A DNA stretch of 64,000 nucleotides. Source: [Mycobacterium] nativiensis (GTDB lineage: Bacteria; Actinomycetota; Actinomycetes; Mycobacteriales; Mycobacteriaceae). Below, piece after piece: positions 43,842-62,852 of this stretch. The stretch is from NCBI RefSeq assembly GCF_020172685.1, contig NZ_CP083986.1:212456-276455 (forward strand). The letters are read 5' to 3'. The notes under the pieces were generated by a model that did not search any database, was not told where the DNA came from, and worked only from the letters and a program-made list of their open reading frames with translations. The number at the start of each line of letters is the position of its first letter. Positions within the stretch are counted from its first letter, which is position 1. Made by a program: the position numbers and the translations under genes.

Positions 43842-45644
43842 TCAGCGCACCACTTCCCGCTGGACCGCATCGATCCGCCGGGTCCAGCCACGCGCGTCGA
43901 GGTACTCCAGCAGCGGGATCATCACCCGCCGGGTGGTGTTCAGGGCCTGGCGGGCCGCGCTCGCGGTGAACGGCTGATCCAGCCGGGCCAGCTCACGCAT
44001 CGCCAGTGCAGGCGCAGTCGGCAGCAACACCAGCCCATCGCGCAGCCGCAGCAACCGACCGGCTCGCTCGGCTGCGGCCAACTCGCGGATGCCCAGGCGT
44101 AGCGCGGCCAGGTCGTCGGCCTCCGGGGCGTGGAACGGGGCTGCCGCCAGCCGGGTCTCCAGTTCGGCCACCGCGGTTTCGGCCGGGCCGAGATCGGTAC
44201 CGGTACCGGGAAGCCGGATCACGCCGTCGTGCTGCTCCAGCCCGGAGCCATGCACCACCTCGTCGAGCAGCGCAGGATCGGGGAGTGCGAGAAGATCAGT
44301 GGCCGCGCCTCGGGACAGTCCGGCGGCCAACGGGTTTCGCTCCTGCAGCTCGCGCACGGCGGACTGCAACCGCTCCTGCCAGGACCGGTACGTCGCGGCA
44401 TGCACCCACCAGCCTCGGATCGCCTTCACCTCGGCCGGCGCCGGCGGAAGGCGGTATCCGAGCAGCCGCAGGTGCCGCTGCGACACCGCACCCCGGCGTT
44501 GCGTCTCGGCGAGCACCCGGCGGGGCAGGTCGGCCGGATCGGTGTCGGCGAGGACGGCGGCACGGCGGGCCGCGTCGCCACGGCGCCGTAGGTCAGGCGG
44601 GTCGGCGTCGAGCACCACCACCCCGCCCAGCACGCTGCGGGTCCCGGGATCGCGCAGGAGTAGGTGATCGGAGAACGCCAGCGGCAAGGGATGTTCCAGC
44701 GTGAGACGGGCGTGTTCGGCGTCCAGGCGGCGCAGCCGGGCCGGCATCGCGGTGGTGCCGACATGGACGGTGAGGTGTTCGGGGGCCGCCGTCAGCGCAG
44801 CGCCGGTATGGCGCTGCACGTCGACGGCCGTGGTGGTGAGCCACTCGTCGGGGCGGACCAGTGCGCCACCGCGGCGTGCGTCGCCGGCGGACACCCCCCG
44901 CAGGTTGACCGCCACCCGGGCCGTGGGTCCGATCGACGAGTGCGGCTCGCCGCAGCTCTGCAGCCCGCGAACCACCACCGCGCGGGCCGAGCCGCGATCC
45001 AGCAACTGCAGGTGATCTCCGACGGCCAGGGTTCCCCCGGTCAGGGTGCCGGTCACCACCGTCCCCGCGCCGGTGATGGTGAAGGACCGATCGACCCACA
45101 GCCGGAGCCGGCCGTCGACCTGTGGGCTCGGCGCGCCGGCCAGCACGTCGTCGAGAACGGACCGCAGCGTGTCCAGTCCGGTCCCGTCGGCCGCCGACAC
45201 CGTGACGATCGGTGCCGCGGCCAGGCCGGTGCCCGCCAGCTCGGCTCGGACCTGCTCCGACACCTCGCCGACCCGCTCGACGCTGGCCCGGTCGGATCGG
45301 GTGAGCACCACCAACCCATGTGAAATCCCCAGGGCGGCAATGGCATCGCGATGGTCACCGGATTGCGCGCACCAACCCTCATCGGCGGCGACCACGAAGC
45401 ACACCACCGAGGCCGGCCCCAGCCCGGCCAGGGTGTTGGGCAGAAACCGTTCGTGGCCCGGCACGTCGACGAACGCCACCTGCCGCCCCGAGGGCAGGGC
45501 GGTCCAGGCGAACCCGAGATCGATGGTGAGTCCGCGGCGTCGCTCCTCGGCCCACCGGTCGGGTTCCATACCGGTCAGCGCCCGCACCAGGGTGGATTTG
45601 CCGTGGTCGACGTGGCCGGCGGTGGCGACGACGAACACGTTCAC
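43842..45644 (-). CDS. selB: Selenocysteine-specific elongation factor SelB
   Basis: A 600-aa translation GTPase that carries Sec-tRNA to the ribosome at a UGA marked by a SECIS hairpin. G1 AGHVDHGKS is at 9-17, G3 DVPGHE near 60 and LTRSD (G4) near 114. EF-Tu-like domains II and III follow, then winged-helix repeats at about 400-600 that bind the SECIS; the end reads TRRIDAVQREVVR. Its ATG overlaps the selA stop by 4 bp. The tRNA-Sec and selA lie upstream on the same strand. The target is the formate dehydrogenase 5 kb away. Confidence 0.95.
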   Translation of the reverse strand: MNVFVVATAGHVDHGKSTLVRALTGMEPDRWAEERRRGLTIDLGFAWTALPSGRQVAFVDVPGHERFLPNTLAGLGPASVVCFVVAADEGWCAQSGDHRDAIAALGISHGLVVLTRSDRASVERVGEVSEQVRAELAGTGLAAAPIVTVSAADGTGLDTLRSVLDDVLAGAPSPQVDGRLRLWVDRSFTITGAGTVVTGTLTGGTLAVGDHLQLLDRGSARAVVVRGLQSCGEPHSSIGPTARVAVNLRGVSAGDARRGGALVRPDEWLTTTAVDVQRHTGAALTAAPEHLTVHVGTTAMPARLRRLDAEHARLTLEHPLPLAFSDHLLLRDPGTRSVLGGVVVLDADPPDLRRRGDAARRAAVLADTDPADLPRRVLAETQRRGAVSQRHLRLLGYRLPPAPAEVKAIRGWWVHAATYRSWQERLQSAVRELQERNPLAAGLSRGAATDLLALPDPALLDEVVHGSGLEQHDGVIRLPGTGTDLGPAETAVAELETRLAAAPFHAPEADDLAALRLGIRELAAAERAGRLLRLRDGLVLLPTAPALAMRELARLDQPFTASAARQALNTTRRVMIPLLEYLDARGWTRRIDAVQREVVR

Positions 45645-46948
45645 CCGATCCGGGCGAGGGCCGTGCGCACCGCGGCCAGCAGCCGCTCGTCGTCGGCTTC
45701 GGGCACGCAGCGCAGATCGAGCAGGCAGGCTCCGTCATGTACGCGGGGCAACACCGCGGGATCACCGGTGCGCAGCGGCGCGGCCACCGCCTCGGGCAGC
45801 CGGACTGCCCAGCCCGGCAGTAGAACTCCGGGGGCGCCGCCGCCGCCGACGCGGCCGTCGTGGGCGATGACGGTGGCGTCGACCGCGTCGGCCAGCCGCT
45901 CCGCGCGGACGCGCAACAGCGCCGGGTCGGCATGCAGCGCCCGGGTCACCGGGGAAGCGGCGCCGGAGACGGTGGCTTCCAACGCGGCGAGCGTGAGCTT
46001 GTCGGCGCGCACCGCCCGGGCCAACGGGTGCCGGGCCAGCCGGGCCACGATCTCGGTGCGGCCCAGCACCATGCCGGCCTGCGGCCCACCGAGCAACTTG
46101 TCCCCGCTGGCGGTGATCATGTCGGCGCCGTCGGTCAGGGCGGTGGCCGCATCCGGCTCGTCGGGCAACAGCGCATCGGGGGCCAGCAGTCCGCTGCCCA
46201 GGTCGGCCACCAGAGGCACCGCGTATTCGCTTGCCAGCGGACGTAGTTCACGCAGCCCGACGGCGGCGGTGAACCCGTGCACGGCGAAGTTGCTGGGATG
46301 CACCTTGAGGATGCAGCCGGTCTGCGGTCCGAGGACCTCGGCGTAGTCACGCAGGTGGGTGCGGTTGGTGGTGCCCACTTCGCGCAGCATCGCGCCGGTG
46401 GATGCGATCAGGTCCGGCAGCCGGAACCCGGCACCGATCTCGATCAGCTCACCGCGGCTGACCACCACCTCCTTGCCCGCGGCCAGCGCGGTGGTGGCCA
46501 GCACCAGCGCGGCGGCACCGTTGTTGACCACCAGGGCGTCCTCGGCGGCCGGGCAGGCCGCCAGCAGTGCGGCCCGCGCCGCGACGCCGCGTTTGGAGCG
46601 GGCGCCGGTGCCCAGGTCCAGTTCGACGTCGACGTAGCCGCCGGCCGCCACCAGGGCCTCGATTGCGGCCGCCGACAACGGCGCCCGGCCCAGGTTGGTG
46701 TGCACCACCACCCCGGTGGCGTTGAGCACGGGCCGCAGCGTGGTCCCGGCGTGGGCCGAAAGAGTCTCCACCACTACGGTTGCGACCTGCTCGGGTGCGA
46801 GTTCGCCGCGACGTGCCCGGTCCTGGGCGTCGCGTACCAGGCCGCGGACGACATGTTCGCCGAGCCGGGTGCGGGCCGCTGCGATGCTGGGCAGCATCAG
46901 CAGCGCGTCGGTGCGCGGAATGGCGCGGCGCGGGTCGACCTCGTTCAC
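45641..46948 (-). CDS. selA: L-seryl-tRNA(Sec) selenium transferase SelA
   Basis: A 435-aa PLP enzyme that turns Ser-tRNA-Sec into Sec-tRNA-Sec with selenophosphate. The bacterial SelA motifs are clear: PVLNATGVVVHTNLGRAPLS at about 75-95, NNGAAALVL near 143, EVGTTNRTHL near 190, and the PLP lysine in ASGDKLLGGPQAG near 263. The GTG at 46948 has a GAGGAGG site; the longer reading from 47020 would run through the tRNA gene. It is followed by selB with a 4-bp overlap. Confidence 0.95.
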   Translation of the reverse strand: MNEVDPRRAIPRTDALLMLPSIAAARTRLGEHVVRGLVRDAQDRARRGELAPEQVATVVVETLSAHAGTTLRPVLNATGVVVHTNLGRAPLSAAAIEALVAAGGYVDVELDLGTGARSKRGVAARAALLAACPAAEDALVVNNGAAALVLATTALAAGKEVVVSRGELIEIGAGFRLPDLIASTGAMLREVGTTNRTHLRDYAEVLGPQTGCILKVHPSNFAVHGFTAAVGLRELRPLASEYAVPLVADLGSGLLAPDALLPDEPDAATALTDGADMITASGDKLLGGPQAGMVLGRTEIVARLARHPLARAVRADKLTLAALEATVSGAASPVTRALHADPALLRVRAERLADAVDATVIAHDGRVGGGGAPGVLLPGWAVRLPEAVAAPLRTGDPAVLPRVHDGACLLDLRCVPEADDERLLAAVRTALARIG

Positions 46949-46971: not shown

Positions 46972-47063
46972 CGGAGGCGGACGGGAATCGAACCCGCCAG
47001 GCCGAGATGCTCGGCCTCACCGGTTTTGAAGACCGGGGAGCCCACCAGGACCCAGACGCCTCC
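46972..47063 (-). tRNA. selC: tRNA-Sec (anticodon UCA)
   Basis: The 92-base minus-strand gene begins GGAGGCG and ends CGCCTCCG. The anticodon arm is CCGGT-CTTCAAA-ACCGG with TCA at 47029-47027. The long variable arm AGGCCGAG-CAT-CTCGGCCT has an 8-bp stem. The T arm contains GGTTCGATTCC. The 3' CCA is not encoded (CCG follows). It lies 23 bases before the selA start and is probably co-transcribed with selA-selB. Confidence 0.95.
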
Positions 47064-47099: not shown

Positions 47100-48089
47100 A
47101 TGGGCTCGGTGCAGGGCATTCGATTGACCGGTTACGCGCACGGCGGTGGTTGCGCATGCAAGATTCCGCCCGGTGAGTTGGAGGACGCGGTTCGCGGCCT
47201 GACCGGACAATCCGGGGACCGGGTGCTGGTCGGCCTCGACGACGGCGATGACGCGGCCGCCGTGTTGGTGCGCGATGACCTGGCGGTGTTGTCCACCGCA
47301 GACTTCTTCACCCCCGTTGTGGACGACGCCTACGACTGGGGGCGGATCGCGGCGGCCAACGCGCTGTCGGACATCTACGCGATGGGCGGAGACCCGGTGG
47401 TCGCCATCAACCTGGTCGGCTGGCCGCGCGAGACGTTGCCGTTGGAGCTGATGACCGAGGTGCTGCGCGGCGGATTGGCGGTGGCGCAGCAGGCCGGCTG
47501 CCCGGTGATCGGCGGGCACTCCATCGACGATCCGGAGCCGAAGTACGGGATGGCGGTCACCGGGGTGGCCGACCCGAACCGCCTGCTACGCAATGACGCC
47601 GCGCGGGCCGGCCTGCCACTGACCTTGACCAAACCGATCGGGGTGGGCCTGCTCAACAACCGGCACAAACGCACCGGCGAGGTCTTCGACGGGGCGATCG
47701 CGACCATGGTCGGGCTCAACCGTGACGCCGCTCGGGCCGCGTTGTCGCACGGGGTGCGGGCGGCCACCGACGTCACCGGGTTCGGTCTGCTCGGCCACCT
47801 CCACAAGATGTGCCGCGCGTCGGGGGTCGGCGCGGTGATCGACCGTGCGGCGGTGCCGATCATCGAAGGCGCGCATGCGGCGTTGCGTGACGGCTTCGTC
47901 TCCGGCGGCAGCCGCCGCAACCTGGACTGGGTCCGCCCGCACCTGCGCCCCGGGCCCGGGGTGACCGAGGATGACCTGCTGCTGCTGGCCGACGCGCAGA
48001 CCTCCGGTGGCCTGCTGGTCGTCGGCGAGCTGCCCGGGTATCCGGTGATCGGGCACACCGTGGCGGGAAGCGGAATCGAGGTGCGGTGA
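47100..48089 (+). CDS. selD: Selenide, water dikinase (selenophosphate synthase) SelD
   Basis: A 329-aa enzyme making selenophosphate from selenide and ATP. The active-site loop HGGGCACKIPPGEL (about 14-27) has Cys20 or Cys18 and Lys21, so this is a cysteine form and not a selenoprotein. The LVGLDDGDDAAAV metal site, STADFFTPVVDD, DVTGFGLLGHL near 228 and the C-terminal AQTSGGLLV confirm the family. It starts at an ATG with an adjacent -10 box. It is divergent from the selC-selA-selB unit. Confidence 0.95.
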   Translation: MGSVQGIRLTGYAHGGGCACKIPPGELEDAVRGLTGQSGDRVLVGLDDGDDAAAVLVRDDLAVLSTADFFTPVVDDAYDWGRIAAANALSDIYAMGGDPVVAINLVGWPRETLPLELMTEVLRGGLAVAQQAGCPVIGGHSIDDPEPKYGMAVTGVADPNRLLRNDAARAGLPLTLTKPIGVGLLNNRHKRTGEVFDGAIATMVGLNRDAARAALSHGVRAATDVTGFGLLGHLHKMCRASGVGAVIDRAAVPIIEGAHAALRDGFVSGGSRRNLDWVRPHLRPGPGVTEDDLLLLADAQTSGGLLVVGELPGYPVIGHTVAGSGIEVR

Positions 48090-48175
48090 GCGACAAGGGA
48101 CATCGTCGGCACTGCAGCCCGGATGACCCGCAGTACGAGATCAGGGCGCGCCGGGCGCCTACCCCGCCGTGGTGA
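48086..48175 (+). CDS. Possible 29-aa small ORF overlapping selD
   Basis: A GTG overlaps the selD stop (GTGA) and opens a frame of 29 codons, rich in His, Arg and Pro (KGHRRHCSPDDPQYEIRARR). It runs 17 bp into the convergent nrfD-like gene. The coupling geometry is that of a real overlap gene, but nothing else supports expression. Confidence 0.2.
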   Translation: MSDKGHRRHCSPDDPQYEIRARRAPTPPW

Positions 48176-49199
48176 TCGAATCCCAGGTGATGCCCGCCGC
48201 CCGGCGGGCTGCCAGCCGGCGCTTCTGCGGCTCGATGGTGTAGCGCGGGTCCTTGGCCGAGGCGATGCCGGCCTCGAACACCCCGAACCGGGTCAGCGCC
48301 GACGCGGCCAGCAACGCGACCCCCGACAACGCCGCCACCACGCGGTTCCGCCCGCCCAGCAGCGCACCGATCCCGCCGGCCACCGCCAGGCGTTCACTGG
48401 CGCGCAGCATCGCCCCGGCCCGGCCGTCATGCAGCGGCTCGGCGGCGATCGGGTCCATCCGCTGTTCCATGAGACGCGTGGCGAGCAGATCACCGATGAC
48501 CCCGAGCACCGCCAATCGCCGAGCCGGACCGGCCTGGGCCACCGGCGTGGTGAGCATCGCCAGCCCGCCGGAGGCCAGGCTCGCCGAGCTGACGAACACG
48601 AACGGCAGGTCTCGGTGCGCGCCGTGCCAGGTCGGGGTTGCGGTGTCGCCCAGCAGCACCGCAGTGTACACGGCCAGCGGCGCCGCGAACACCGCGGCCT
48701 CCAAGCCGGCCGGCCCCTCGACGGCGCGCAGTACGCCGCGCAGTGGGCCCAGCGGCAGCCGTTCGCCGGTGAGCCGGTCGACCTCCGCGGCGGCGGCCAC
48801 CCCGGCGCCGGTGCTGAACGCCGACAGAATCCATGACCCCAGGCTCATCGGGGAGGTGAGCTTGATGGTGCGCAGCATGTTGAAGAACCGCTCCGGGCGG
48901 CCGAGGTCGCTGATCAGGGCCGCAGCGCTGAGCATCACCGCCCCCAGGGCCGCGAGCCGGGAATTGCGCCGCAACACCGGCCGGCCGGTCAGCTGCGCCC
49001 CGGCGGCCAGCAGTCCGGAGCCGCCGGCGAGGCCGCCGAGGAACAGATACGCGGCGATCTCATGTGACCACGGCGCGGGCTTGACCACCGGCCGCCCGTA
49101 GTAGGAGGTGAACTGCACATCGGGGACCATCGGCATTTCCCGGCCGCCGTCACCACCACCCCGGCGGCGGCGCCGGCGGGGCTCCTGCGCAGTGCTCAC
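48159..49199 (-). CDS. NrfD-like membrane subunit of formate dehydrogenase
   Basis: A 346-aa polytopic protein of the NrfD/PsrC family with about eight hydrophobic segments after an Arg-rich N-terminus (RRRRRRGG). The family segment EIAAYLFLGGLAGGSGLLA is near 46-65 and FNMLRTIKLTSPMSLGSWIL near 106-125. It should anchor the dehydrogenase and pass electrons to menaquinone, taking the place of the cytochrome b subunit of E. coli Fdn. Its start overlaps the fdhB stop by 4 bp. It is the last gene of the fdh operon and convergent with selD. Confidence 0.87.
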   Translation of the reverse strand: MSTAQEPRRRRRRGGGDGGREMPMVPDVQFTSYYGRPVVKPAPWSHEIAAYLFLGGLAGGSGLLAAGAQLTGRPVLRRNSRLAALGAVMLSAAALISDLGRPERFFNMLRTIKLTSPMSLGSWILSAFSTGAGVAAAAEVDRLTGERLPLGPLRGVLRAVEGPAGLEAAVFAAPLAVYTAVLLGDTATPTWHGAHRDLPFVFVSSASLASGGLAMLTTPVAQAGPARRLAVLGVIGDLLATRLMEQRMDPIAAEPLHDGRAGAMLRASERLAVAGGIGALLGGRNRVVAALSGVALLAASALTRFGVFEAGIASAKDPRYTIEPQKRRLAARRAAGITWDSITTAG

Positions 49200-50161
49200 C
49201 GGCGCCTCCCCACAAATGCGAGCGCCGCCGCGCCGATCATCCCCGCGGCGGCCAGCGCCGACCGCTTGAACATCGCCGGCAGGTCCGCGGTGCCCACCCG
49301 AGGATCCGGTGGCAGGCCGTACACCTCCGGCTCGTCGAGCAGTAGGAAGACCGAGCCGGTGCCTCCGACCCCGTCGTTCTCATTGGCGCCGTAGAGCCGG
49401 GCCTCGGTGCGGCCCTGCGCGTGCATCCGGGCCACCCGCTCGCGGCCTTCGGCGACCAGGTCATCGTGATCGCCGAACTTGATCGACTCGGTCGGACAGG
49501 TTTTCGCGCAGGCCGGAACTTCGCCGTCGACCAGCCGGTCGTAGCACATGGTGCACTTTTGGGCGATTCCAGCGTTGGGTACCCCGGGCTCGGCCCCCCG
49601 GGCCGACTTCGGCGCGGCCGTGCCGTCGGTGCGGCGCTCGATCACCCCGAACGGGCAGGCCGGCACACAGTTGCCGCAGCCGTTGCAGACGTCATCCTGC
49701 ACCACCACCGTGCCGAACTCGGTGCGAAACAGCGCACCCGTCGGGCACACGTCCAGGCACCCGGCGTGCGTGCAGTGCTTGCAGACATCCGAGGCCATCA
49801 GCCAGCGGAACTGATCGGTGTCGGGCGGGGTCAGATCCGGTGCCGCACCGGGCATTTTCGGCATCCCCAGGTCGATGAGTTGCCGTCCGCTCTCGCGTGC
49901 CGCAGCGATGGCGTCTTGGCCTTGCTCGATGAACGCCACGTGTCGCCAGGTGTTGGCGCCCAGCGCGCCGGTGTTGTCGTACGACGACCCGAGCAGCTCC
50001 AGATCACCGTCGGCTGGGTTGTGGTTCCACTCCTTGCAGGCCACCTCGCAGGCCTTGCAGCCGATGCAGATCGAGGTGTCGGTGAGGAACCCCTTGCGCG
50101 GGTGGTGCGGTGACCACCCGGCGTCGGCGGCGGGGTCGGTCGGTCCGGACAGTTGGCCCAT
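49196..50161 (-). CDS. fdhB: Formate dehydrogenase iron-sulfur subunit FdhB
   Basis: A 321-aa electron-transfer subunit with four [4Fe-4S] clusters. The first motif is CIGCKACEVACKEW (Cys32, 35, 38, 42). It is followed by CKHCTHAGCLDVCP near 136, CNGCGNCVPACPFG near 165 and CTMCYDRL...CAKTCP near 208-228. A single hydrophobic segment near the C-terminus (ALAAAGMIGAAALAFVG) fits a membrane-anchored beta subunit. The ATG at 50161 overlaps the fdhA stop (TGATG); the extra 41 codons upstream are read from fdhA. It passes electrons from FdhA to the NrfD-like protein. Confidence 0.92.
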   Translation of the reverse strand: MGQLSGPTDPAADAGWSPHHPRKGFLTDTSICIGCKACEVACKEWNHNPADGDLELLGSSYDNTGALGANTWRHVAFIEQGQDAIAAARESGRQLIDLGMPKMPGAAPDLTPPDTDQFRWLMASDVCKHCTHAGCLDVCPTGALFRTEFGTVVVQDDVCNGCGNCVPACPFGVIERRTDGTAAPKSARGAEPGVPNAGIAQKCTMCYDRLVDGEVPACAKTCPTESIKFGDHDDLVAEGRERVARMHAQGRTEARLYGANENDGVGGTGSVFLLLDEPEVYGLPPDPRVGTADLPAMFKRSALAAAGMIGAAALAFVGRRR

Positions 50162-53100
50162 CAGTCCCGCCTTTCCGGATCGGTGTTGCCGGTCTCCGGT
50201 GTTGCCCCGGAGCGGCTTTGGTACTCGGCGACCAGCCGCAACAATGCCTCGCCGTGCGGCCGCCGGCCCGGCCGGATGTCGCACGAGCCGGCCTTGGACT
50301 CCTGGATCTGCACGTTGGGGTCCAGTGTCACCCCGAGCAGGTCGTTGGCGGCGTCTCCGCTGACCACCGCATCGCCGCCGACCCCCCAGTGGTAGGGCAG
50401 GCCGATCTGGTGCACGGTGTGTCCGCCCACCACCAGCGGCGTCATCCGATCGGTCACCAGCACCCGCGCCTCGATCGCCGCGCGCGGCGAGATGATGGTG
50501 GCCCAGCCGTAGTTCTCCAGGCCCCGTTCGGCGGCCAGCGCCGGCGACACCTCGCAGAACATCTCCGGCTGCAGCTCGGCCAGGTAAGGCAACCAGCGGC
50601 TCATCCCGCCGGCGGTGTGGTGCTCGGTCAGCCGATACGTGGTGAACACGTACGGGTAGACATCCGCACCCGGCTCGCCGGCGCTGGGGGCCGACAGATT
50701 GTCCTTGCGGGGGAACGTGATTCGAGCCGGATTGCGCTGCTGGGCATGCAGCGCGTTGACCACCGGCGACTCCTGCGGTTCGTAATGCGTCGGCAGCGGT
50801 CCGTCGACGACACCCTTCGGCGCGAACAGCCAGCCCTTGCCGTCGGGCTGCATCACGAACGGGTCGTCACCGGCCAGCGCGGCCACCCCGCCCAGTGCCG
50901 GGTCGCCCGGCGAACCCGGGGCGCGGTCGATCACGAAGTCGGGCACGTCATCGCCCACCCAGCGGCCCAACTCGGCATCCCACCAGATGTATTTCTTGCG
51001 CTCGCTCCACGGCTGTCCGGCCGGGTCGGCGGAGGCCCGGTTGTACAGGATCCGGCGATCAGCCGGCCAGGCCCAGCCCCATTCGGACTGGGTGCGGCCT
51101 GAGCCTCCGTGGGGCGTCCGGCGGGCAGCCTGGTTGACCCCACCGGCGTACACGCCGCTGTAGATCCAGCAGCCCGCGGCGGTGGACCCGTCGGCGCGCA
51201 GCTCGGTGAACCCCGACAGGCACCGGCCGGCGTCGTCACCGGTCAGCTGGTGACCGTTGATCTCGGCCAGCACGAACTGCGGATCGGGATCGCCGTGCTC
51301 ATCGACGGGATAGTCCCAGACCAGATCCAGCAGCGGCCGGTCGCGCGGATCGGTGGACCCGGCCAGCTTGGCCCGGATCCGGTTGCCCAGCTCGATGAAG
51401 AACTGCAACTCGCTGATGGCCTCGCCCGGCGGCTGCACGGCCTGGTGGCGCCACTGCAGCAGCCGCTGGGTCTGGGTGAACGTCCCGGCCTTCTCCACGT
51501 GGCTGGCCGCCGGCAGGAAGAACACCTCAGTCTCGTTGTCTTCGGCGCGCAGTTCACCGGAGGCGATCTCCGGGCCGTCCTTCCACCAGGTGGCGGACTC
51601 GATCAGGTTCAGATCGCGCACCACCAGCCACTTCAGGTGCGACATGCCCAGACGCTGCTGGCGCCCGTTGGCCGAGCCGACGGCCGGGTTCTGGCCGAGC
51701 AGGAAATACCCCTGCACTTCGCCGTCGAGCATCCCGGTCACGGTCTGGTAGGTGCCGTGCGCCCCGGTCAGCCGGGGCAGATAGTCATAGGCCCAGTCGT
51801 TGTCGGCACGCGCGGTCTCGCCCCACCAGGCCTTGAGCAGGCTCACCGTGTAGGCGTCGGCGTTCGCCCAGAACCCCTTCTGTCCCTTGGGTGCCACCGC
51901 ATCCAGATAGTCCGTCAGCGTGTCGTGCCTGCCGGCCCGCGGCATCGGCAAATAGCCGGGCAGCATGTCGAACAGGGTGGGGATATCGGTCGAACCCTGG
52001 ATGCTGGCGTGCCCGCGCAGGGCCATGATGCCGCCGCCCGGCCGGCCCACGTTGCCCAGCAGCAACTGCAGGATCGCCGCGGTGCGGATGTACTGGGCGC
52101 CCAGGGTGTGCTGGGTCCAGCCCACCGCGTAGGCGAAACAGGTGGTGCGCTCCCGTCCGGAGTTGGCCGTGATGGCGGCGGCCAGATAGTCGAATGCGCT
52201 CCCGTCGATACCGCACACCTCGCGCACCATCTCGCGGGTATAGCGGGCGTAGTGCCGCTTGAGGATCTGGAACACCGTCCGCGGGTGCTGCAGGGTTGCA
52301 TCGGTGACCGGGGCGCGGCTCTCGTCACATTGATACGCCCAACTCGACGGGTCGTAGCTGCCGGTTGCCGGGTCGAAGCCGGAGAACAGTCCGTGCAGGT
52401 CCTCGGTGTCGCGGAAATCCTCACCGACCAGCGTCGCGGCGTTGGTGTAGGCCAGCACGTAGTCGTGGAACCACAGGTCTTCGGTGAGGATGTGGTTGAT
52501 CAACGCGCCCAGCAGCACCACGTCGGACCCGGCCCGGATCGGAATGTGCTTGTCGCACACCGCCGAGGTGCGGGTGAACCGCGGGTCGACGTGGATCACC
52601 ACCGCACCGCGGGCCTTGGCCTCGGCCACCCACTGAAAGCCCACCGGATGGCATTCGGCCATGTTGGAGCCCTGGATGACAATGCAGTCGGCATTGGCCA
52701 TGTCCTGCAGGAATTGCGTCGCCCCACCGCGACCGAAGGAGGCTCCCAGACCGGGAACCGTGGCGGAGTGTCAAATACGAGCTTGGTTATCGATCTGTAT
52801 GACGCCGGCCGCGGTGAAGAGTTTCTTGATGACGTAGTTCTCTTCGTTGTCCAGCGTTGCCCCGCCCAGCGAGGCGATGCCCATCGTGCGCCGCAGTGGC
52901 CGGCCGTCGGCGTCACTGTCCTGCCAGGTGTCCCGCCGCGACTCGATGAACCGGTCGGCCACCATGTCGATCGCGGTGTCGAGCTCCAGCGGCTGCCAGT
53001 CGGTGGCCCGAGGCGCTCGGTAGAGCACGGTGATCTGCCGGCCGGGGGAGTTGACCAACTGCTCGCTGGCCGCACCCTTGGGGCACAACCGTCCGCGGGA

Positions 53101-53337
53101 GATCGGTGAGTCCGGGTCCCCCTCGATGCCCACGACCTTCTCGTTCTTGACGTAGACCCGCTGGCCGCAGCCGACCGCGCAGTACGGGCAGACGCTTTGC
53201 ACCACCCGGTCGGCGGTCGCGGTGCGCGGGGTGGTCTCGCGGGTGTGTTCGGAGGTGACGGCCGGGCCGCGGCCCAGCAGGTCACCGGTGCGCAGTTGCC
53301 GGATCACCGGCCAGCCAAGGAACTTTCGCTCACTCAT
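50161..53337 (-). CDS. fdhA: Formate dehydrogenase catalytic subunit, selenoprotein
   Basis: One 1058-residue molybdo-bis-MGD enzyme oxidising formate to CO2. It is interrupted only by an in-frame TGA at 52773-52771, which must be selenocysteine 189. The surrounding NQAR-I-U-H-S-x-TV-x-GL and FGRGG match the active site of known Sec formate dehydrogenases. N-terminal [4Fe-4S] ligands are Cys50, 53, 57 and 85. A SECIS hairpin with a GGUCU loop begins 11 bases after the UGA. No Tat signal is seen, so the catalytic side may be cytoplasmic. Automatic callers would report two genes (52771-53337 and 50161-52701). It is co-transcribed with fdhB and the NrfD-like gene. Confidence 0.95.
52741..52759 (-). 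promoter_or_regulatory. Bacterial SECIS element in fdhA
   Basis: On the minus strand GGTTCCC pairs with GGGAGCC (one G-U pair) around the loop GGTCT, the loop bound by E. coli SelB in fdhF. It starts 11 bases after the UGA, the same distance as in E. coli fdhF. It recruits SelB with Sec-tRNA. Confidence 0.9.
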
Positions 53338-53415: not shown

Positions 53416-54279
53416 ATGATGGGGTACATGGGTCAGGTCACACGCCGCAGCGCCCGGCACCTTCGCGCCGGTACGGCGACGCAACGCCTGGAAGCCTTGG
53501 CAGTCGAAGAACCGCTGGAGATCCGGGTCAACGGCGCCCCGCTCAGCGTCACCATGCGCACTCCTGGATCCGATGTCGAGCTGGCGCAAGGTTTTCTGCT
53601 CACCGAGGGCATCATCTCCCGACGCGAGGACGTGCTGACGGCGCGCTACTGCAGCGGAGCCGGGGACGGCCCGCCGCAGGACTACAACGTGCTGGAGGTA
53701 ACTCTCGCCGGCCACGTACCGCGACCCGAGGTGGATCTCACCCGCAACTTCTACACGAGCTCGTCGTGCGGGGTCTGCGGCAAGTCGTCCCTGGAAGCGG
53801 TGCGTCTGGCCAGCCGCTATGGTCCCGCCGACGATCCGGTACGGGTTGCGGCGGCGACCTTGACTGCAATGCCCGATCAGCTACGGGCCGCCCAGACCGT
53901 GTTCGCCCGCACCGGCGGTCTGCATGCGGCCGCGTTGTTCTCGGTGGGGGGCGAGGTCGTCGGTGGGGCCGCCGACGCAGCGTCGATGCTGGTCGTCCGC
54001 GAAGACGTCGGCCGGCACAACGCGGTCGACAAGGTGATCGGGTGGGCGCTGGAGCACGGTCGGGTTCCGTTGGCCGGGACCGTGCTGATGGTCAGTGGGC
54101 GGGCGTCGTTCGAGCTGACCCAGAAGGCGGTGATGGCCGGGGTGCCGGTGTTGGCCGCGGTGTCCGCGCCATCGTCGCTGGCCGTGGACCTGGCCGCCGA
54201 ATCCGGTCTGACGCTGGTGGCGTTCCTCCGGGGCGACTCGATGAATGTCTACAGCCGGCCCGACCGCGTCGTCGGCTGA
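53416..54279 (+). CDS. fdhD: Formate dehydrogenase accessory sulfurtransferase FdhD
   Basis: A 287-aa protein that transfers sulfur to the molybdenum cofactor of formate dehydrogenase. The catalytic CGVCGK (Cys118, Cys121) is intact, and [29 protein letters not shown] and [17 protein letters not shown] are the conserved stretches. The ATG at 53428 ([12 protein letters not shown]) is an equally likely start. The gene is divergent from fdhA with 78 bp between, which suits shared regulation. Confidence 0.93.
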
Positions 54280-54417: not shown

Positions 54418-55704
54418 ATGGTCAGTCATCGTCTTCATCGGCGTCGGCCCAGCAGCAGGCATCTGATCGGCGTCGGAGCCGCCGCCGGCGTCTTCCTGGC
54501 AGCGGGACTGGCGCAGACGACCGCCCCGGCCGCACATGCCGATCTGTGGGATTTCTTCGACCCGATGGTCAATGCGTTCGACGCCGGCACGGGCTTCGAC
54601 CCGTTCGCCGTCCTCGCCGGCTTCGACCCGGGCAGCGCGGATGCGGGTTCGCTCGACTTCGGGCAGTCGATCAACGATGCGCTGCAGGAGTGGCTCGCCA
54701 GCGAGTCCGGCATGCAGATGGCCGCGATGGTCAACGAGCCGTTTGTCTACCTGTTCGGACGCGACCTGATCGGCAACGGCATCGATGACTTCACCGACGC
54801 CAACACCTCGCTGCTGGGCAGCAGCGGTGCATTCGGCGACCTCGGCGACGGTGGCTTCCTGTTCGGCAACGGCGGCGCGGGAGCAGACGGTGTCGCCGGC
54901 GTGAACGGCGGCACCGGTTGGGCCGGCGGCTCGGCCGGCATGTTCGGCGATGGCGGCGACGGCGGCGCTGGTGCGGCGGGAGCGGCAGGCGGCGCCGGCG
55001 GTAACGGCGGCAGCACGTTCGGCAACGGCGGAAACGGCGGCGACGGAGGTGCGAGCGTGAGCGCCACGGTGGCCGGCGGTGATGGCGGCGCGGGCGGCAA
55101 CGCCGGGTCGTGGTACGGCAACGGTGGCAACGGAGGTGACGGCGGCGCCGGTCTGCTGGGTGCCCAAGGAGTGGCCGGCGGTGCCGGTGGGGCCGCCGGC
55201 AACGGTGGGCACGGCGGCAATGGTGCATCTTTGGGGACCGGCAACGGCGGTAACGGCGGCACTGGCGGCAAGGGCGGCGACGGCGCCCCGGTGAGCGGCA
55301 GCGGTAGCGGTGGTGGCGGTGGTGGAAACGGCACCGGTGGCGGTGGCACCGGTGGCGGTGGAACCGGCAGCGGCGGTGCCAATACCGCAGGCGGCAACGG
55401 TGGCCGAGGTGGTGCGGGCGGCAGCGCCGCACTGGTGTCCGGGAACGGCGGCAATGGCGGCGACGGCGGTAACGGTGGCTTTGCTGGGGTCAGAGGCCCC
55501 GACAGTTCGGGCGGTCAAGGCGGCGCCGGTGGTCAGGGCGGTGCCGGCAGCATGAGCGGTACCGCCGGCGAGGCCGGCAGCGCCGGGAACACTCCCGGCA
55601 GCCATGCCGGTGGTGGCGGTGGTGGCAACTGCAGCGGTGGGCCCGGCGTCGGCGGTCCCGGCGGCCCCGGCAGCGGCACTGGCGGCGGCAACGACTGTGG
55701 CTAG
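54418..55704 (+). CDS. Secreted PGRS-repeat protein with a signal peptide instead of a PE domain
   Basis: A 428-aa protein. Residues 1-41 are a signal peptide with an arginine-rich start, a hydrophobic core and an AHA-D cleavage site; the RRR could suit Tat. Residues about 42-125 are a non-repetitive acidic domain ([13 protein letters not shown]). It ends with GRDLIGNG, a clear variant of the GRPLIGNG hinge of PE_PGRS proteins. From about 140 to the end there are glycine-rich GGAGG/GNGG repeats. It lies on the cell surface or outside; the function is unknown. It resembles PE_PGRS proteins from the hinge onward, but the export route must differ. Confidence 0.85.
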
Positions 55705-60467: not shown

Positions 60468-62036
60468 ATGTCGGCCCCCGCCGCCTGGATGGCGGCCCCG
60501 CCTGAGGTGCACTCGGCCATGCTGAGCACCGGGCCGGGGCCCGGGCCGCTGCTGGCGGTATCGGCGGCTTGGGCATCGCTGAGCGGTGCCTACGTCAGTG
60601 CGGCAACCGAACTCACCGCTGTGCTGGCAGATGCCCAGGGTGTGTGGGCCGGCCCGGCGGCCGAGGCTTACGCCGCCGCGCATCTGCCCTACCTGGCCTG
60701 GCTGCAGTTGGCCGGCACGCTCAGCGCCCGAACTGCAGCCCAGCATGAGGTGATCGCGGCGGCCTACAGCGGCGCGTTGGCGGCGATGCCGACCTTGGCC
60801 GAATTGGCCGCCAACCACGCCACCCACTCCGTGTTGGTGGCAACCAACTTCTTCGGGGTCAACACCGTGCCCATCGCGGTCAACGAGGCGGATTACGCCC
60901 GGATGTGGGCCCAGGCCGCCTCCGTCATGGGCGCTTACCAGGCCACCACCGAGACCGCCCGCAGTCTGGGGCATTCCAGTGGCAGTGCTCAGGCAGGCGT
61001 TGCGGCCGGCGGCGGCGGGGGCGGTGGTGGCGGCGGGGACGGATCCTTCGACCTGCCGACACCTGCGGAGATCTGGCAAATGCTGTTCGGGTCGGACGGC
61101 CAGCAGGTGCCCGGCCAGGGCCAGCCGAAATGGAGCCCGGCGGAGTTCCTGCAGAACCTGTCCAATCTCGCCAACGGCAACGACAAGGCGCTGGCTTGGT
61201 TGCAGCAGAACTTCCAGGGCCTGCTGGACCCGGCCCGACTACCGGAACTCATGAGCTACTTCATCGCCTGGCAGACGTTTCGTGCCGTCAACTGGACGTT
61301 GCGTAGTCTGCGCTTTCTGGCGCAGCTGTCCCCGCTGTTGGCGGCGGTGGGGCTGAGCCTGGCGATCGGCGGCCTGGCGGCTGTGGCACCCGGGGCCGGC
61401 CTGGCCGGACTGGCCGGGTTGGCCGGTATCCCCGGATCGGCCGGTATCGCGCCGCCTCCGGTGATCCCGGCGCCCGCAGCAATGGCGCCGGTGATCCCCG
61501 GTGGTGTGACGCCGTCTGCCCCGGCCCCGGTCGCCGTCCCCGGGTCAGCAGCGCCACCGGCTCCGGCGACGTTGCTGCCCGCACCGGCTGCGTCCGCGGG
61601 CGCACCACCGCCGCCCGCGGCGCCGCCTCTGATCGGCACCGAGGGCACGTTCCACGCCTATCTGGTGGGCTGGTTGCCCTCGTCGCAGGGCGCTGTCGGG
61701 ACCTCCGCGACCAAGGCGGCCCGCCCCGCCGCCGGAGTTGTGGTTGCAACCGCACCGGCCGAGCCGATGCGGGGAACGCCGCGGCACAGCGGACGTCGGC
61801 GCGGAACGTTGATCGACCCCGGTTACCGGTATGAGTACCTCGACGAGCACGACCCGGGTGCCGCAGTCCGGATCCGGCAGAGTGTGGCGGGGTTCGCGGG
61901 GACCCTCGGCAAGACCGGGGTGGCGCGCGCCGCCGGTATGGCGGCGCTGTCCGGTGACGAATTCGGTGGGGGACCGACAATGCCGATGCTGCCGGACTCC
62001 TGGGGCAACGCTCCCCCCCCCGCTGATCTGAACTAG
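60468..62036 (+). CDS. PPE-family protein, PPE4-like
   Basis: A 522-aa PPE protein. The PPE domain is residues about 1-180, with [33 protein letters not shown] (WxG) and [25 protein letters not shown] glycine run near 180-190, a hydrophobic Ala/Pro-rich region and a C-terminus with [15 protein letters not shown] and [17 protein letters not shown] complete it. The C-terminus is that of the ESX-3 PPE4 type. It pairs with the PE protein just upstream. A run of nine cytosines near 62015 encodes Pro codons and could be slippage-prone. Confidence 0.92.
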
Positions 62037-62256: not shown

Positions 62257-62550
62257 ATGAGTTTGTTGGATGCGCATATTCCGCAGTTGGTGGCCTCTGA
62301 GTCGGCGTTTGGGGCCAAGGCTGCGTTGATGCGGTCGACGATGGCGCAGGCGGAGCAGGCGGCGTTGTCGGCGCAGGCGTTTCATTTGGGTGAGGCGGCG
62401 GCGGCGTTTCAGGGGTCGCATGCGCGGTTTGTGGCGTTGGCGGCGCGGGTGAATGCGTTGCTGGATATGGCGCAGGTGAATCTGGCGGATGCCGGTTCGA
62501 CGTATGTGGCGGCCGATGCGGCTGCTGCTTCCGGGTACACCGGGGTTTAG
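62257..62550 (+). CDS. esxG: EsxG-like WXG100-type secreted protein
   Basis: A 97-aa protein matching M. tuberculosis EsxG along its length: [19 protein letters not shown], then [18 protein letters not shown] and [16 protein letters not shown]. As in EsxG the classical WXG is replaced by SAQAF. It forms a helical pair with the EsxH-like protein and is exported by ESX-3, linked with iron and zinc uptake. AAAGGAG lies before the ATG. Codons here use more TTG, TTT and GGG than the flanking genes. Confidence 0.92.
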
Positions 62551-62564
62551 GGAGGGTTTGTCTG

Positions 62565-62852
62565 ATGTCGCAGATTATGTACAACTACCCGGCGATGTTG
62601 GCCCATGCGGCTGAGATGAATGGGTATGCGGGCACGTTGCAGGCCGTGGGTGCTGATATTGCCAGTGAGCAGGCGGCGTTGTCGGCGGCGTGGCAGGGCG
62701 ATACGGGGATGACGTATCAGGCGTGGCAGGTGCAGTGGAATCAGGCGATGGAGGAGTTGGTTCGGGTGTATCACTCGATGGCTGCCACGCATGAGGCCAA
62801 CACGATGATGATGAACGCTCGCGACACCGCCGAAGCCGCCAAGTGGGGCTAG
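62565..62852 (+). CDS. esxH: EsxH-like WXG100-type secreted protein (TB10.4 type)
   Basis: A 95-aa protein that is near-identical in layout to Esx[21 protein letters not shown], the [20 protein letters not shown] segment with its WQG turn, and the end [20 protein letters not shown]. It lies 14 bp after esxG and forms a 1:1 complex with it. The zinc-binding residues reported for EsxH (including the His of AHAAEM and HEAN) appear to be kept. No espG3 or ecc genes follow directly. Confidence 0.92.

Follow-up and report, generated by a model that had tools for sequence, protein, structure and literature searches.

An in-frame UGA in a formate dehydrogenase gene

The genome of [Mycobacterium] nativiensis (one contig, 5.28 Mb) carries, within the 64,000-nucleotide stretch analysed here (the window), a formate dehydrogenase (fdh) gene crossed by an in-frame TGA, which raises the question of whether this codon is read as selenocysteine (Sec) or ends translation. 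A mechanical list of open reading frames (ORFs) gives the alpha subunit gene as pieces of 188 and 846 amino acids, the second starting at an ATG at position 52701. As the first-pass annotation had proposed, the minus-strand frame is open without shift through the TGA, and U189 is followed by His190 at a single formate dehydrogenase active site. The joined frame has 1058 residues, and the UGA falls in a block (QARI-x-HSATV) that aligns with solved enzymes. Comparative analysis indicates that the locus (Table 1) almost certainly encodes a membrane-anchored molybdopterin formate dehydrogenase with Sec as metal ligand in the alpha subunit and with its own selA, selB, selC and selD alongside. The near certainty of Sec decoding comes from related genomes, in the distribution of TGA and Cys codons relative to selA and tRNA-Sec.

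Table 1. Features of the formate dehydrogenase and selenocysteine locus (positions in the window)
Feature	Position	Strand	Evidence or remark
fdh alpha subunit, 1058 residues, predicted Sec at 189	50161..53337	-	NF041513, TIGR01553; Pfam PF04879, PF00384, PF01568
In-frame UGA, codon 189, predicted to be read as Sec	52771..52773	-	TGA in 134/139 readable same-genus genomes
Candidate SECIS: 7-bp stem with GGUCU loop, 11 nt downstream of UGA	52741..52759	-	Rfam SECIS_3, 34 bits, sub-threshold
Codon -1, ATT	52774..52776	-	Third base always A or T across 247 unique UGA copies
4Fe-4S beta subunit; ATG overlaps alpha stop	49196..50161	-	Fer4 domains; TIGR01582 below cut-off
NrfD-type membrane anchor	48159..49199	-	Pfam PF03916 above cut-off
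selD, selenophosphate synthetase	47100..48089	+	TIGR00476, 385 bits (cut-off 125)
selC, tRNA-Sec, anticodon UCA	46973..47063	-	RF01852, 80.4 bits; ARAGORN
selA, selenocysteine synthase	45641..46948	-	TIGR00474, 420 bits (cut-off 267.9)
selB, Sec-specific elongation factor	43842..45644	-	TIGR00475, 286 bits (cut-off 242.25); SelB-wing_3
fdhD, formate dehydrogenase accessory sulfurtransferase, divergent, upstream of alpha	53416..54279	+	NF001943, 366.5 bits (cut-off 269)

The joined alpha protein scores 1889.5 bits against NCBIfam NF041513 (formate_DH_Act; cut-off 1400) and 935.4 bits against TIGR01553 (formate dehydrogenase-N alpha; cut-off 814.2); it is 37.8% identical to an Escherichia coli copy that has TGA at the same site, and its sequence is that of an FdnG-type catalytic subunit. 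Among solved structures its best matches are formate dehydrogenases, of which several are named as selenocysteine-containing, and the UGA aligns with their Sec or Cys metal ligand (X in 1h0h, C in 9qm0). The best named matches are those of Mycolicibacter sp. MYC017 and MYC123 (94% identity), in a comparison from which records very near the window may have been left out. The expectation of a gene split by automatic calling is borne out by the plain ORF list and is otherwise too strong: NF041513 exists, and in two RefSeq plasmid records from relatives the gene is a single coding sequence (CDS) in which codon 189 is the only internal stop.

The four Sec-decoding genes, said in the first pass to lie within 10 kb, were all located, selA, selB and selD above the cut-offs of their family models and selC as a tRNA-Sec; the start of selA was chosen to avoid overlap with the tRNA. 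Every one of the 59 named loci of at least 20 kb has the beta subunit, nrfD, selA, selB and selD (tblastn) and tRNA-Sec (ARAGORN) nearby, and six of these 59 have fdhD. Elsewhere in the window, a glycine-rich ORF (54418-55704), a PPE-like ORF (60468-62036) and two small WXG100-like ORFs (62257-62852), so labelled from their translations, are presumably usual for mycobacteria.

The hairpin behind the UGA

The hairpin 11 nt after the UGA, with its 7-bp stem and GGUCU loop, is present as first described, and both loop and distance are E. coli-like, as claimed; what it does not reach is the Rfam gathering score. Against RF01989 (SECIS_3) the hairpin region gives a full-length, gap-free match of 34 bits (E 2e-6 for 171 bases), compared with a gathering score of 63, and a gathering-level Rfam scan of the window returns tRNA-Sec alone. 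The bacterial SECIS constraints described in PMC13188914 (loop of 3-9 nt; stem of 4-16 bp; G within loop positions 1-2; 16-37 nt from UGA to loop; minimum free energy of -7.5 or lower) accommodate the hairpin, which has a loop of 5 nt, a stem of 7 bp, GG, a distance of 18 nt and an energy of -12.6 kcal/mol (40 nt).

The window contains 1486 TGA triplets, counting both strands; 48 are followed by a hairpin of 7 bp and 5 nt anywhere 6-23 nt downstream and three by one at exactly the same spacing; the fdh site is the one of these three with a GGUCU loop. The 5.28-Mb genome has a single occurrence of the pattern TGAY-N10-GGTNCCCRGTYTGGGNNYC, and a model made with 48 of the 87 unique 51-mers, the fdh site included, finds this site alone in the genome (E 1.3e-13; the next match is at E 4.1). 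Neither pattern nor model yields a second such element in the genome, where SECIS of other types may yet exist. Fold energy proved to be weak evidence: z is -3.08 for the 19-nt hairpin and unremarkable for 40 nt (-0.80) and 49 nt (-0.24). The weight for this candidate SECIS lies in its conservation among relatives.

Codon 189 and the selenocysteine machinery in related genomes

The same-genus set comprised 297 genomes, of which 140 have a strong fdh match; the other 157, among them 11 genomes with weak matches (E 7e-31 to 3e-69), were counted as lacking the gene, and loci L001-L003 were left out as other proteins of the genome. With selA accepted at E 1e-30 or better and tRNA-Sec above its gathering score, selA is found in 129 genomes and tRNA-Sec in 133, all inside the 140 with fdh, and neither is found at these cut-offs in any of the 157. 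Since selA and tRNA-Sec were never found without fdh in this set, formate dehydrogenase may be what maintains the Sec system in mycobacteria.

The Sec site is readable in 139 of the 140 genomes (in G109 the stretch ended with the contig) and is TGA in 134 and Cys only in five (G004, G053, G093, G145 and G151; completeness 96-100%). At the cut-offs used, neither selA nor tRNA-Sec was found in any of these five, and both were found in 128 of the 134 TGA genomes; four others (G097, G100, G118, G256) have tRNA-Sec and no selA match, and two drafts of 300 and 630 contigs (G086 and G293, respectively) have neither. A Cys-type copy stands alongside the UGA copy in G196 (L148) and G138 (L160). The seven Cys rows fall together on one side of a single long branch in a 192-row tree and thus represent one old lineage rather than seven independent losses; even so, the association of Cys with missing machinery carries weight, since the lineages belong to different genomes.

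Outside the genus, 90 genomes have a match, and 82 loci from 80 of them were read (10 genomes were not). The site is TGA in 63 of these loci, Cys in 18 and TAG in one. A search for tRNA-Sec at E 1e-10 was positive in 58 of the 61 TGA-only genomes, in four of the 18 Cys-bearing genomes (including G599, which carries a TGA copy as well) and in the TAG genome. At that threshold tRNA-Sec was not found in the TGA genomes G507, G642 and G317. In G507 (L233), a well-rated genome of the same family, this could reflect an assembly gap or a divergent tRNA. The TAG genome, G661, belongs to a relative of the same order (L316, G661:C7:184130-185479, and L321); its TAG copy has an intact hairpin, and its tRNA-Sec (64.2 bits) has the anticodon CUA and is printed as tRNA-Pyl by ARAGORN. 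Compared by anticodon, the pair fits the CUA tRNA-Sec of Geodermatophilaceae described in PMC5330540, and this swap is already in print. The relatives amount to a natural experiment in which UGA, UAG and Cys forms track the tRNA-Sec gene.

These distributions bear on two other readings of the TGA. A nonsense mutation or sequencing error in a Cys-type gene would leave the two pieces seen in the plain ORF list, and Cys versions of fdh do exist; but an error of one assembly is refuted by the same TGA in relatives, and the presence of TGA in 134 of 139 readable same-genus genomes, 80 of 80 named loci and 63 of the 82 loci from other genera, together with the preserved frame and the conservation of the hairpin, makes such damage exceedingly improbable. 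Only slightly less improbable is that a near-cognate Trp or Cys tRNA reads the UGA, or that the UGA mainly terminates and an internal start supplies the 846-residue piece. The ATG at 52701 does open that ORF, and recoding at such a UGA in E. coli is given in PMC4513850 as only 30-40% in vivo; against this stand the confinement of selA and tRNA-Sec to genomes with fdh among the 297, the pairing of the TAG copy with a CUA tRNA-Sec, Cys at the site in the five genomes without machinery and the position of residue 189 as a metal ligand in solved relatives. Partial termination at the UGA is compatible with reading as Sec.

Conservation of the hairpin and of the base before the UGA

The 133 unique TGA stretches from the same genus and from named records of other genera have all seven stem pairs in 129 cases and six pairs in four, with loops GGTCT (103), AGTTT (18) and AGTCT (12); none of seven Cys stretches has all the pairs or any of these loops. 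Outside the genus, 38 of 63 TGA loci have all seven pairs and 20 have lost the outer pair alone, with the same three loops, and none of 18 Cys loci has all the pairs, while three of them (L264, L272, L274) still have GGTCT. Covariation is slight (one pair changed on both sides) because the stem hardly varies. Codon +5 is GTT and codon +6 is CCC in 182 of 182 unique stretches, on a background of mean third-position GC of 0.864 over 276 codon columns. In the seven Cys copies, codon +5 is GTC (4), GTG (2) or GTT (1) and codon +6 encodes valine; in the 63 TGA loci outside the genus, codon +5 is GTC (30), GTT (26), GTG (6) or ATC (1).

The codon immediately 5' of the UGA (codon -1) is ATT in 209 of 247 unique UGA copies, ATA in 35 and GTT in three, and never ATC, which makes up 77-99% of nine other conserved Ile columns in the same rows; because the rows are related, the 247 copies should not be taken as independent events. 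In 25 Cys copies the codon is GTG (13), GTC (11) or GTA (1), and in the TAG copy it is ATA. Elsewhere it is ATA in Thermomicrobium and GTC in four proteobacterial Sec copies, so any rule for this base would be lineage-specific. Third-position GC over codons -4 to -1 is 0.32, the lowest of 244 windows; the low values at codons -4 and -3 fail in the 63 loci outside the genus (0.92 and 0.98), and codon -1 alone is therefore kept. An unpaired upstream stretch as the explanation of the low GC was rejected, since 12-nt windows with ends between -13 and +2 are unexceptional in the UGA copies (ranks 53-114 of 582), although those that end at +5 and +8 take ranks 11 and 10. We tentatively propose, at slightly less than an even chance, that the actinobacterial Sec-UGA signal of fdh extends to the base immediately preceding the UGA; such a frozen base could perhaps set the balance between Sec insertion and termination. 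Literature searches turned up nothing on codon -1 among the listings and passages covered, from which we make no claim that the observation is unpublished; the frozen base is possibly a small novelty and offers a small testable lead.

Predicted function and known systems

Comparison with relatives supports a model in which SelB carrying Sec-tRNA would bind the hairpin behind the UGA, so that codon 189 would be decoded as Sec and translation would not end there. The families of its subunits suggest a complex of alpha, a 4Fe-4S beta subunit and an NrfD-type anchor, in which alpha would oxidize formate to carbon dioxide and electrons would pass through the beta subunit and the anchor to the quinone pool. 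No twin-arginine signal was seen on the N-terminus of alpha, which makes a cytoplasmic orientation of the active site probable. In relatives, a crude twin-arginine pattern matched 17 TGA rows and missed 181 TGA and six Cys rows (in a further 19 rows no upstream stop delimits the start). All 17 matches read RR-[IS]FL-WPV and show no hydrophobic stretch (12 judged by eye); a WPV-RQ-GD-GRG segment is common at the alpha N-terminus of relatives.

In E. coli FdnGHI, the alpha subunit has a twin-arginine export signal and the gamma subunit, FdnI, is a cytochrome b. The complex in the window shares with FdnGHI the TIGR01553 family and the type of SECIS loop and spacing; unlike FdnGHI, it lacks the twin-arginine signal on alpha, and its third gene encodes NrfD (PF03916) rather than a cytochrome b subunit.

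The locus is a clean, ordinary case of actinobacterial Sec recoding: the first-pass observation is correct, and Sec formate dehydrogenase genes of this kind are already known. The alpha subunit of formate dehydrogenase is described as the most widespread bacterial selenoprotein (PMC5029168, PMC13188914), and changes from Sec to Cys are reported mainly in this family and in SelD (PMC1794560). A table in a study of Sec and Pyl prediction has a row for Mycobacterium avium paratuberculosis with formate dehydrogenase (PMC1242214), and another table lists M. marinum MMAR_5194/5195, with the linked selA MMAR_5190, as a Sec formate dehydrogenase (PMC3434033), here compared by description; the same source describes it as lost in M. 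ulcerans. FDH1 of the actinobacterium A. chiangmaiensis DSM 45062, as described in PMC7176365, likewise has a Sec alpha subunit (1078 amino acids), beta and gamma, and its cluster is taken to include SelA and SelB; that cluster differs in an extra permease and in SelD being listed outside it. In that work the SECIS was sought with bSECISearch, and addition of selenite abolished formate accumulation (PMC7176365).

Arthrobacter plasmid pYA7-1a (NZ_CP110115.1; L326) has the same gene order of fdh, beta, nrfD, selD, tRNA-Sec, selA and selB, and its fdh (78% identity) likewise has UGA at codon 189, within one annotated CDS. It differs in that the plasmid is typed as conjugative and the SECIS loop is AGUUU, and no fdhD lies in the stretch shown. 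The plasmid cassette (NZ_CP110115.1 28137-47409) adjoins a Tn3-family transposase.
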